From Cyanobacteria bacterium HKST-UBA02 (GTDB lineage: Bacteria; Cyanobacteriota; Vampirovibrionia; Obscuribacterales; Obscuribacteraceae), in assembly GCA_020431945.1 (NCBI GenBank), contig JAGQHH010000117.1, forward strand, positions 1-13,613: a stretch of DNA of 13,613 nt, read 5' to 3'. Shown here piece after piece: positions 3,940 to 11,327 of this stretch (position 1 is the stretch's first letter; the number at the start of each line of letters is the position of its first letter). Under the pieces are notes generated by a model. That model searched no databases. It saw only the letters and a program-made list of their open reading frames with translations, and had not been told where the DNA came from. The position numbers and the translations under genes were made by a program.

Positions 3940-5412
3940 TTAGAACTGGAAGTAGATGAACTGAGGCGAGAAATCAGGCGACCAGATGAAGAGGACCACC
4001 AGAAGAAGCGCCATATAAGCTGGTTTGAAGACAGGCATGCCGAAGAGGCGCAGATTCAGAGCAGGCATAATGCCGGGGGTCTCTTTCGACTTCGAGACGA
4101 TTATCTGCATCGCATACATGCCGATAAGAATGAGAGGGAGGAACTGGAAAAGGATCGAATCGCTGGTGGAGACGATGCTGGCATGGAAAAAGGAGGTGTC
4201 CGGAATCCGATCCAGATAAAGGAGCTTGCGAATCACCATGAATGCTTTCTCCGGATTCTCCGCCCGCATGAAGACTGCGCTCATGCACCAGAAATGCCAG
4301 GTGACGAAGACTGCCAGGACATGATAGTACCTGGTCTTGATGATCTTAGTGAGAGTCTCGTTCTTGGTATAGAACTTGCTCCAGAGCCTGTGCACCACCA
4401 TGAGCACACCGAGACTGGCTCCCCAGGCACCATAGTTGAGACCGGCGCCGTGCCAGAATCCGCCGATGATCATGGTTAGCATTATATTGCGCAGGGTGGC
4501 CAGCTCACCGAACTTGCTGCCCCCCAGGGGAATGAAGAGATAGTCGCGCAACCAGGTGGACAGGGATATATGCCAGCGTCTCCAGATCTCGGTGATGGAG
4601 CCAGCCAGAAAAGGCAGGTCGAAGTTGATGGGGACACTGAACCCGAGAAGCTTGGCCGAGCCCCGGGCTATATCGGTATAGCCGGAGAAATCGAAATAGA
4701 CCTGCCAGGCGAAGCTGTAGGCCGCCAGCCAGAGATCGGCGCTGGTGAGTAGATCCGGGTGTGCATAACAACGATTGACGACAATCGCCAGGTGATCGGC
4801 AAGCACCACCTTTTTGAAAAGACCGAAAAGTATGAGCTCCACCCCTTCGTCGAAGTCCTGGCGAGTGATGCTGCGAGGCGCATGGAGCTGCGGGATGAAG
4901 TCGCCGAAGCGTTTGATGGGACCGGCTATCTGGGTGGGGAAAAAGGCCGGGAAAAGAGCGAACTCCATGAAGGAGCGCACCGGCTTGGCGCCGCGATAGA
5001 CCTCGAAAAGATAATGAATGAACTCGAAGCAGAAAAAGGAGATGCCCAGGGGCAGGATTATATCGAAGGGGATATTGGGGATTTCTTTGTGAACGAGAAA
5101 CTTGGAGGCATCGCTGGCGATATCGTGAACGAAATAAGCGTATTTGAAATATCCCAGGGTGATGCAGTTGGCGGCGATCCCCAGAGAGAAGACCAGTTTT
5201 TTCCGGTCTGTGGCTTTCTCTACGGCGAAGGCGTAGAAATAATTGAAGACCGTCAGACCCAGGATAAGGAGCCCGTAGATAGGCTGCCACCACATATAGA
5301 AAACATAGCTGGCCAGGAGCAGCACCGGTGTGCGCAGCCGGAAAGGCGACTTCCAGTAGATCAGGAAGACGATGGGAAGGAAGATCATGTAAGCCAGGCT
5401 GTTGAACAACAT
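3940..5412 (-). CDS. MBOAT family membrane-bound O-acyltransferase (AlgI/PatA/DltB-like)
   Basis: A 490-residue polytopic membrane enzyme of the type that carries acyl groups, usually acetyl, across the inner membrane for O-acylation of exported polysaccharide or peptidoglycan. It has about ten hydrophobic segments from residue 5 to the C-terminus. Family motifs in order are FFPTQIAGPIKRF (158-169), YFDFSGYTDIARG (239-251), WRRWHISLSTWLRDYLFIPLGG (within 277-298), and GGFWHGAGLNYGAWG (317-331), where His321 is the expected catalytic histidine. His281 lies in the second conserved motif. The length matches AlgI-type proteins. It starts three bases after the stop of the SGNH gene. Its GGAGGAA ribosome site (5424-5430) is inside the end of that gene, so translational coupling is likely. 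The acceptor is not given by the sequence. The SGNH partner argues for an AlgI/AlgJ- or PatA/PatB-like system. Confidence 0.95.
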   Translation of the reverse strand: MLFNSLAYMIFLPIVFLIYWKSPFRLRTPVLLLASYVFYMWWQPIYGLLILGLTVFNYFYAFAVEKATDRKKLVFSLGIAANCITLGYFKYAYFVHDIASDASKFLVHKEIPNIPFDIILPLGISFFCFEFIHYLFEVYRGAKPVRSFMEFALFPAFFPTQIAGPIKRFGDFIPQLHAPRSITRQDFDEGVELILFGLFKKVVLADHLAIVVNRCYAHPDLLTSADLWLAAYSFAWQVYFDFSGYTDIARGSAKLLGFSVPINFDLPFLAGSITEIWRRWHISLSTWLRDYLFIPLGGSKFGELATLRNIMLTMIIGGFWHGAGLNYGAWGASLGVLMVVHRLWSKFYTKNETLTKIIKTRYYHVLAVFVTWHFWCMSAVFMRAENPEKAFMVIRKLLYLDRIPDTSFFHASIVSTSDSILFQFLPLILIGMYAMQIIVSKSKETPGIMPALNLRLFGMPVFKPAYMALLLVVLFIWSPDFSPQFIYFQF

Positions 5413-5415
5413 GGT

Positions 5416-6648
5416 CTAGAGCGTTCCTCCTTCTTTGCCTGCTACTTTTCTGTTCGTCTGACTGTCAACAAGGGCTGTTTCGAGCTCCTGATTGGCGGCG
5501 ATGAAATCGCCCAGGGCCGAGAGCATCTTGGCACCACCGGAGGGGCTCATATGACCCCAGTCGGTGAAGTCCTGCTTCTCGTGGACCCAGACCGGATCGA
5601 GATTGAGATAGGGTATGCCTTCTTCTTTAGCGATTTTTTCGAGATAAGCGGCATGTCTTTCGTATATGCCTTCGTGCATGCACTGTCTGGCCACGGTGGA
5701 AGAGGGCACATGCAGGATCATTGGCTTGATTCCTTCTTTCCTGCAGGTGGCAAGGGCCAGGTCCAGCCATTTCTTCTGGTTCTCGAAGACGTCGTCATTC
5801 ATATGCTTGTAGCGATGCTTGCAATCGGCGCTCGAGTCCACGTACCAGTAAGGTGTGTCCGGGTGAGCCGTCCAGGCGCCCTGCTCGATCTCGTCACGCT
5901 TGAAGACATTGCGCCGGTCTTCCTCTGATTTCTGATCCAGGGGGCTGGGGGGAAGCATGGCCACCAGGGGTTTCATAGCCGTGCGCAGTCTCTGGGCGGA
6001 GAGGGCTTGAATGTCCTGGGCCTTGGTCTTGAAATAGATGGCGTTGGAGAAGAGATCGGTGAAGCGCCCGTTCAGATCGTTGAACTGCAGGCTGGCAATG
6101 TCGTCGTCCTCGGTGAATTTGCCGAGATAGCGAAAATGCTTGGAGAGCCCGGCATTGTTGAAACGGCAGTCCATTAAATCGCGCGGCGCTATGAAAAGCA
6201 CTGCCACATCAGGATGTTTGTCACCTTTGCACATGGACTTGAGGATCATGCACTGGTCCGAGACCATAGCGCCGGGCAGACCGAAATTGAAACACTTGAG
6301 ATTACTGAGACCGGTCTTCTCTTTGATCCGGTCCTCTAAATAATGGACTCTGTGATCGACTACGAGATCCACGTCTTGTTTGCGATAGACCGCTTCATTG
6401 AGCCAGGTCGGGTTCATCACGAATGAGGAGCCGAGAAGAAGGACATTGACCGGCTCTTTCTGCTGGCGATATTCCTTGCCTGCCCACCAGGCCCAGGTAC
6501 GCACCGACTGGGTGGCTTCCGGGTCGACCTTGCCCACCGGATTGACCAGGAGCAGGATCATATTGATGGCGGCGACCAGGAGAAAACCCTGGGCGACATA
6601 GCTGTCGCGCAGGAAATCCATGACCAGTTTGCTCTTGGGCTTGCTCAT
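5416..6648 (-). CDS. Membrane-anchored SGNH/GDSL-type protein (AlgJ/AlgX/DUF1574-like acylation partner)
   Basis: A 410-residue protein with one N-terminal membrane anchor (about residues 17-36) and a large extracytoplasmic domain. The fold is an SGNH hydrolase: the strand VNVLLLGSSFV carries the block I motif with probable nucleophile Ser75, NFGLPG supplies the block II glycine, and DFTDWGHMSPSGG carries the block V D-x-x-H pair (Asp363, His366). Proteins of this kind (AlgJ, AlgX, PatB, DUF1574) move the acetyl group delivered by an MBOAT protein to its sugar acceptor outside the membrane. The MBOAT gene follows after only three bases. The start ATG has an in-frame TAG directly before it and only a weak ribosome site. 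The block III Asn is not obvious, and FIAPRDLMD takes that place, so activity is inferred from family and context. Confidence 0.85.
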   Translation of the reverse strand: MSKPKSKLVMDFLRDSYVAQGFLLVAAINMILLLVNPVGKVDPEATQSVRTWAWWAGKEYRQQKEPVNVLLLGSSFVMNPTWLNEAVYRKQDVDLVVDHRVHYLEDRIKEKTGLSNLKCFNFGLPGAMVSDQCMILKSMCKGDKHPDVAVLFIAPRDLMDCRFNNAGLSKHFRYLGKFTEDDDIASLQFNDLNGRFTDLFSNAIYFKTKAQDIQALSAQRLRTAMKPLVAMLPPSPLDQKSEEDRRNVFKRDEIEQGAWTAHPDTPYWYVDSSADCKHRYKHMNDDVFENQKKWLDLALATCRKEGIKPMILHVPSSTVARQCMHEGIYERHAAYLEKIAKEEGIPYLNLDPVWVHEKQDFTDWGHMSPSGGAKMLSALGDFIAANQELETALVDSQTNRKVAGKEGGTL

Positions 6649-8798: not shown

Positions 8799-9140
8799 AT
8801 GTCGAAGTCACGGACTATCATTGAGTTAAAGGAAGGAGATAAGCTCCCGCCGATTCACCCGGGTGAAATCCTGCGAACCGAATTTCTGGAGCCTCTAAAT
8901 TTGAGTGCGACTAAGTTGGCTACTTTGATGAGTGTGCCAGCTACGCGCATAACGGCGATTATCAGTAACAAAGAAAAGAGAGCCATAACGGCTGATACTG
9001 CTATTCGACTCGCATGCGTTTTCAAGACGTCGGCGGAATTTTGGCTCGCGCTGCAGGCCAATTATGAGGTCGCGGAGTTCGACTTTACAGGCATGACGGA
9101 CAAGATCAGAAACGAGGTCAGAGAACTCTCGAAGGCTTGA
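8799..9140 (+). CDS. higA: HigA family antitoxin (HTH, XRE-type), apparently without a toxin partner
   Basis: A 113-residue DNA-binding antitoxin. It carries the family signature PPIHPGEILRTEFLEPL (residues 17-33), a helix-turn-helix with LSATKLATLMSVPATRITAI, and the closing motif TSAEFWLALQANYE, all typical of HigA/VapI proteins. Such proteins normally neutralise a RelE-like HigB mRNA interferase and repress the shared promoter. The ATG is preceded by GAGAGGA at eight bases, a good ribosome site. A higB gene would usually lie directly upstream, but the 96-bp gap after the ABC exporter holds none, and the next gene downstream faces it and does not look RelE-like. Hand counts over four 60-base lines give about 50% GC, lower than the neighbouring exporter (one line about 65%), which suggests it was acquired. 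It could now be a plain transcription regulator. Confidence 0.88.
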   Translation: MSKSRTIIELKEGDKLPPIHPGEILRTEFLEPLNLSATKLATLMSVPATRITAIISNKEKRAITADTAIRLACVFKTSAEFWLALQANYEVAEFDFTGMTDKIRNEVRELSKA

Positions 9141-10859: not shown

Positions 10860-10882
10860 ATTGGTAATCAGGGGGAGTGTAA

Positions 10883-11266
10883 ATGAGCTACAAAATGGAC
10901 ATCGAGGCATTGAGAACGGAACATCCGGATCTGGCTGAATTTTTTAGCGGGGTGAATACCCTCGAGAAGGTTTTCGAATGGGTCCGGCACAATCCGGACA
11001 AAGCCGGAGAGATCGAGCTCATACCTCAGGACGAGTTCAGCCATGACATGATCGTCGAGCTCACGGACAGACCGGGCTGGCTGGTTGCAGGCGTCACCTG
11101 ACTCGGCCGGCTGACGGCGGTCGCCGTCTTTGCCGACAGGCCCGATGCAAGAGTGCTTCTCGACTGGCGCCTGGCTTCTGGATGGAAACCTACTCCCTCC
11201 GAGCTGGTGGATGGCGAGAAAATCCTCGGCTACGCTGCCTGTCTTGTATCGCAAGAATCTGAATAA
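10883..11266 (+). CDS. Candidate small selenoprotein, in-frame TGA at codon 73 (or gene with a nonsense mutation)
   Basis: The frame starts at an ATG with a strong GGGGGAG ribosome site five bases upstream. It reads 72 codons, meets TGA at 11099-11101, then continues in the same frame for 54 codons to TAA at 11264-11266, giving 127 residues if the TGA is read. The part after the TGA looks as protein-like as the part before it: LGRLTAVAVFADRPDARV, then WRLASGWKPTPSELVDG and GYAACLV. The gene is intact apart from the TGA, with no frameshift. A SECIS-like stem-loop begins right after the TGA, and the base following it is C, a weak termination context. Residue 73 would be selenocysteine in WLVAGVT-U-LGRL. 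The only Cys is 120, and there is no CxxU motif. I do not recognise the family. Other genes here end in TGA, so a changed genetic code is excluded. A recent CGA-to-TGA or similar mutation remains possible. Confidence 0.6.
11102..11137 (+). promoter_or_regulatory. SECIS-like stem-loop directly downstream of the in-frame TGA
   Basis: The apical hairpin is GACGGC (11113-11118), loop GGTC (11119-11122), GCCGTC (11123-11128): six perfect pairs. The loop begins 18 nt after the TGA. An outer stem TCGGC (11103-11107) pairs with GCCGA (11132-11136) across an internal loop containing unpaired T residues. E. coli fdhF, as I recall it, also presents GGUC in a small apical loop, 19 nt after its UGA, where the G and U are read by SelB, and has an outer stem and a bulged U. 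The match in loop sequence and distance is the main evidence. A folding program and SECIS search would test it. Confidence 0.6.
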
Positions 11267-11294: not shown

Positions 11295-11327
11295 AAGAAG
11301 GGTGATGCTAAGTGCATCACCCTTCTT
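11295..11327. terminator. Bidirectional hairpin terminator between convergent genes
   Basis: A perfect 14-bp stem (AAGAAGGGTGATGC with GCATCACCCTTCTT) closes a five-base loop TAAGT. On the plus strand it ends in a T-rich CTTCTTTCT, 28 bases after the TAA of the candidate selenoprotein gene. On the minus strand it begins one base after the stop of the second ABC-2 permease and is followed by ATTCTATT. It probably ends both transcripts. Its position after the TAA at 11266, not the TGA at 11101, fits a transcription unit that includes the downstream part of the interrupted gene. Confidence 0.85.

Follow-up and report, generated by a model that had tools for sequence, protein, structure and literature searches.

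The SECIS of Escherichia coli fdhF, with a GGUC loop and a spacing comparable to that reported below, is a well-described point of reference for selenocysteine (Sec) insertion at UGA in bacteria. The bacterial SECIS (bSECIS) model, as given in the accessible part of a 2026 review (PMC13188914), provides for a loop of 3-9 nt, a stem of 4-16 bp, a G in the first two loop positions, a spacing of 16-37 nt and an MFE of at most -7.5, and a 17-nt upper stem-loop is, according to the accessible part of PMC11431864, enough in E. coli. Table 1 of the review also names uncharacterised Sec/Cys families found by comparison, such as the hypothetical proteins GOS_B, GOS_C, DG and DF (PMC13188914), and the family reported here resembles them in kind.

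The stretch of DNA analysed (the window, 13,613 nt) carries on its forward strand a predicted selenoprotein gene at 10883..11266, delineated from the sequence and from homologs. It opens with ATG at 10883 behind a Shine-Dalgarno-like AGGGGGAG read off the sequence (10870..10877, forward strand), runs for 72 codons to an in-frame TGA (11099..11101, forward strand) and for 54 further codons to a TAA stop (11264..11266, forward strand, codon 128), thus giving 127 residues with Sec at position 73; the single in-frame TGA and the 54 codons beyond it had been claimed in the first-pass annotation and were confirmed on the sequence. Downstream of the TGA lies a small hairpin with a GGUC loop, as in the fdhF type, at a spacing that falls inside the review's range of 16-37 nt (PMC13188914). 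We consider it very probable that this UGA is a selenocysteine codon, a degree of confidence that concerns the decoding and not a redox role, and we take the gene to belong to a new selenoprotein family. On this view SelB, loaded with Sec-tRNA, would bind the GGUC-loop hairpin that starts 11 nt past the UGA, and the ribosome would then insert selenocysteine at 11099-11101; for the SelB step we draw on how bacteria are known to decode Sec, on the conservation of the hairpin and on the machinery that the sister genomes carry.

A contig scan returned three true relatives, each with its TGA at the corresponding codon and 44-47% identical across residues 15-127; a fourth match (L004) was rejected as a chance match. 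Across 53 genomes of the cyanobacteriotal order that holds the window's nearest genomes, the gene was present in 12, at 13 places, and all 13 kept TGA at that codon (14 of 14 genes with the window included), identity to the window falling to 34% at the lowest. The same 12 genomes were recovered in a class sample of 382, and only one of them (G001) in a phylum sample of 386. The ABC transporter of the window is 73% identical to that of G402 and 72% to that of G404, both of the same order, which places the window in this order or close by. Around residue 73 the genes share the motif [TSP]-U-[LV]-G, with T in 10 of 14 and VTULGRL in the window. It should be added that two gene copies were present in the G001 MAG (L001 and L002, on contigs C56 and C429), perhaps since two strains had been binned together.

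A TGA within an otherwise open frame is no rarity: with at least 60 open codons before it and at least 50 after it, nine such TGAs were counted in the window and 77 in 28 control loci. Together with the relative in G420, whose copy meets a further stop in frame (TAA) ten codons past the TGA, this is what might favour an ordinary gene with a nonsense mutation or an error of sequencing. Against such an origin stand the identity of the TGA in 14 of 14 genes from separate genomes, the conservation of the hairpin and the purifying selection that appears to act past the TGA, and we regard it as having practically negligible probability. The median dN/dS was 0.25 on the 3' side (dS defined for 49 of 78 pairs) and 0.30 on the 5' side (20 of 78), values that exclude the G420 copy and, with many dS estimates saturated, are supportive only of constraint on the codons 3' of the TGA. 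The G420 copy itself (L032), with hairpin and TGA intact and the additional TAA, may be a decayed copy or an assembly error.

The predicted SECIS hairpin occupies 11113..11128 on the forward strand, with a stem of 6 bp (11113-11118 / 11123-11128) and an apical GGTC loop at 11119-11122; it begins 11 nt after the TGA and its loop opens at the 18th base past the TGA, in agreement with the first-pass annotation. With the TGA numbered 1-3, positions 15-20 pair with 25-30 and 21-24 form the loop. In the comparison of 14 sequences (the window and the 13 copies of relatives), 94% of the stem cells were paired; 13 of 14 had the GGTC loop, and six pairs formed in 11, five in two and three in one (G402). 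Two-sided changes occurred at three of the six stem pairs, four cells in total: one in G436, where C-G replaces G-C, two in G434, with A-U at two pairs, and one in G402. Of 500 shuffles, one reached the covariation score, and none of the six versions with a slid stem did, even if the stem slid by +3 has a larger number of pair types (8, vs 6 in the real stem). Since the shuffles ignore relatedness, more weight is placed on the compensatory cases and on the codons. The Val codon that underlies the loop is always GTC (14 of 14) and the Ala codon before it always GCG (13 of 13), whereas nearby codons are free to vary, with identical pairs numbering 20/91 for Gly, 31/91 for Leu and 24/91 for Pro. 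Judged from these patterns, the SECIS-like hairpin is under selection of its own.

The exact hairpin (six pairs, GGTC, same spacing) follows one of 449 TGA triplets of the window, on both strands and in any frame, and none of 4202 in the 28 control loci (130,273 bases), a count that is descriptive, as the template came from the window finding itself. Its energy alone is ordinary and the conservation is the real evidence: the 48-nt window fold has -21.7 kcal/mol (z -1.57), equalled by 14 of 200 shuffles. Minimum-energy folds of 48 nt contain the hairpin whole or in part in 12 of 14 sequences and miss it in G402 and G436, the latter hairpin reaching -9.6 kcal/mol when folded alone. The window hairpin agrees with the bSECIS model of the accessible review text (GGTC, 6 bp, 17 nt from TGA to loop, -9.6 kcal/mol alone; PMC13188914), while G402 fails it and three others lie above its energy limit with the hairpin alone (G404, -5.7; G434, -6.1; G001b, -7.4). 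G402, the nearest to the window by ABC transporter, keeps the TGA without a good hairpin (loop TGTC, three of six pairs); this copy (L024), in which TGA and coding constraint are kept and the GGTC hairpin is absent, may use a different SECIS or be losing function. In contrast to the fdhF type, the family conserves the 6-bp upper hairpin only and not a lower stem: the outer five-bp stem of the first-pass annotation, with 44.6% of cells paired over the 14 sequences, did not hold up as a conserved element.

Nor is the C after the TGA, which had been put forward as a leaky context, general, since the base is C in 5 of 14 and G in 9 of 14. Those five C contexts would suit programmed read-through without selenium, in which the hairpin aids near-cognate insertion and a minor extended protein accompanies a functional one of 72 residues; a stop-proximal downstream hairpin can promote read-through in other systems. 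This explanation would leave unaccounted for the Cys relatives at exactly residue 73, the Sec machinery in the 12 gene-bearing genomes and the fit of the window hairpin to the bSECIS model (PMC13188914, accessible part). Moreover, the 72-residue product would lack strand four of the predicted sheet together with everything after it, and we judge read-through of this kind to be highly improbable.

Selenocysteine decoding of the UGA is in line with the gene content of the order, in which the machinery was scored against curated cut-offs: of the 53 genomes, tRNA-Sec exceeded the cut-off in 42, SelA in 38, SelB in 40 and SelD in 45. In the 12 gene-bearing relatives tRNA-Sec, SelA and SelD were each found in 12 and SelB in 11, the SelB-like match in G404 scoring 172 bits vs a cut-off of 242. 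ARAGORN identified tRNA-SeC with anticodon TCA in both of the relatives' loci tested. As tRNA-Sec is common also without the gene, its co-occurrence with the gene gives weak support. The presence of tRNA-Sec in 42 of 53 genomes, vs 12 with the gene, makes other selenoproteins likely in the order.

A protein search with the single window sequence yielded only two matches, 72-residue fragments ending at the TGA site, one identical to the window protein (P0002) and one 90% identical (P0003). Altogether 131 distinct proteins from protein searches were examined, the largest search having matched 614, of which the best 120 were taken. Position 73 was read through in 65 of them and occupied by Cys in 44 (one being a 62-residue piece), Trp in 13, Leu in three, Arg in three and Ser in two. 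The first-pass annotation had named as checks homologs aligned at residue 73 with Cys, or with TGA and a conserved hairpin, and both kinds were recovered, TGA being present at 13 of 13 places and the GGTC loop in 13 of 14 sequences with the window included. Trp and Arg relatives in the absence of Cys or Sec relatives, which it had held to be contrary to its proposal, were not the pattern encountered: the Trp, Arg, Leu and Ser forms coexist with 44 Cys forms. With the TGA at an unchanged codon throughout, Cys in most read-through relatives and a hairpin that is mostly kept, the selenoprotein interpretation is supported.

The 13 Trp forms deserve separate consideration, since they could show the true residue if UGA were read as Trp through a lineage-wide code change or a suppressor tRNA, and for 9 of the 13 the nearest relative is another Trp form. 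Such a reading is opposed by the continued use of UGA as a stop, three gene copies in three genomes (L025, L029 and L030) themselves terminating in TGA, by the tRNA-Sec with TCA anticodon, by the predominance of Cys and by a SECIS-like hairpin that appears selected in its own right. Furthermore, a C-terminal fragment is the nearest relative of 4 of the 13, and 10 of the 13 lie on contigs shorter than 2.5 kb, a weak point, as many Cys entries are on short contigs too. On such contigs gene callers can apply table 4. Trp, Leu, Arg and Ser each have a codon one base away from TGA. The Trp entries may represent mistranslated TGA (table 4) or real Trp, and we find UGA as Trp very unlikely to explain the window gene.

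Selenocysteine at position 73 would also be consistent with the remaining entries: 57 of the 131 are C-terminal pieces whose first residue lies at 74-82, seven are N-terminal pieces whose last residue is exactly 72, and two were unplaceable, so that about half of the entries examined are fragments broken at the UGA position. The fragments and the Trp, Leu, Arg and Ser forms were compared as protein sequences. As these 64 fragments break at one place, Sec forms beyond Cyanobacteriota are suggested. The C-terminal pieces include P0090 (Polyangia), P0111 (Nannocystis bainbridge) and P0100 (Acidobacteriota), and the source names of two Cys forms, P0019 and P0050, are Acidobacteriota and Blastocatellia. 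In a tree of 75 rows and few columns, 12 UGA rows group with two Leu forms (99/90), and the Cys label requires six changes, three forced by supported branches. We consider it more likely than not that the family is widespread, that its small fold has gone unrecognised and that its single Sec occupies a [TSP]-U-[LV]-G turn, Sec being used in Cyanobacteriota and also, e.g., in Myxococcota (Nannocystis, Polyangia) and Acidobacteriota, and Cys elsewhere. If so, it would have been hidden so far because gene callers split the gene into short pieces, 59 of the 64 fragments being below 80 residues.

The first-pass annotation had recognised no known selenoprotein family in the gene, and the comparisons bear this out. 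The read-through window protein had no Pfam match, and 27 family members compared with Pfam-A and NCBIfam 20.0 gave no match below E 0.003; the best were RNA_pol_L_2 (E 0.0033, 1 of 27), pPIWI_RE_Y (0.0049, 3 of 27) and xylF (0.023, 1 of 27), with no selenoprotein model among them. A profile of the 27 members found no chain among PDB sequences at E up to 10. No counterpart to the family was seen among the 119 families in Table 1 of the review (PMC13188914), and it differs from the known prokaryotic families there in the lack of model matches and in its motif; the model comparison covers those families with Pfam or NCBIfam identifiers, not those with cd or PTHR ones only. The literature searched, including the accessible part of the deep-Sep paper (PMC12013277), holds no record of selenocysteine in this family.

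The AlphaFold model of the window protein (mean pLDDT 94.4) had no clear match among PDB structures and predicts a small alpha/beta domain with a four-strand meander, to which the residues after the TGA belong. In it Sec73 falls in the turn joining strands 66-72 and 76-83; judged from strand order, this turn and a conserved QDE turn (49-52) lie at the same sheet end, which suggests an active site. A selenol/thiol-dependent redox enzyme is the predicted function and the weakest step of our reading, one we hold evenly balanced between right and wrong. As with thioredoxin-like selenoproteins, the protein has a single Sec and possible thiol chemistry, but unlike them it has neither UxxC nor, as the first-pass annotation had observed for the window, CxxU (VTULGRL); nor do the translations of the relatives place a Cys at a distance of three residues from the UGA in either direction. 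No Trx-fold chain is among the PDB matches listed for the model, which may still have a thioredoxin fold. Cys120 was considered as a partner of Sec73 and is unsupported in this role, since Trp forms also retain it.

In a wider sense, these data point to a family that extends to hundreds of database entries (614 matches) and to selenocysteine being used in an order of Cyanobacteriota that has received little study; they offer a natural Sec/Cys pair for probing what selenium contributes and a conserved hairpin open to testing in E. coli.

The gene has a SIMPL-domain gene on one side and ABC-2 permease genes on the other, all of them on the opposite strand, and hence looks monocistronic; neighbouring genes are not conserved among the relatives and give no hint of function. 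The strong terminator that had been placed after the TAA is a real stem-loop of 14 pairs (11295..11327, strand unassigned) between the gene and the convergent ABC-2 gene, and the scan scored it as terminator-like on the minus strand only. Elsewhere in the window, 8799-9140 (forward strand) encodes an antitoxin with Pfam HTH_3, presumably HigA-like, with no adjacent toxin gene recognised. At 3940-6648 (reverse strand) an MBOAT acyltransferase adjoins a protein whose DUF1574 match falls narrowly short of the cut-off, a pair that we take to be reminiscent of polysaccharide O-acetylation pairs.
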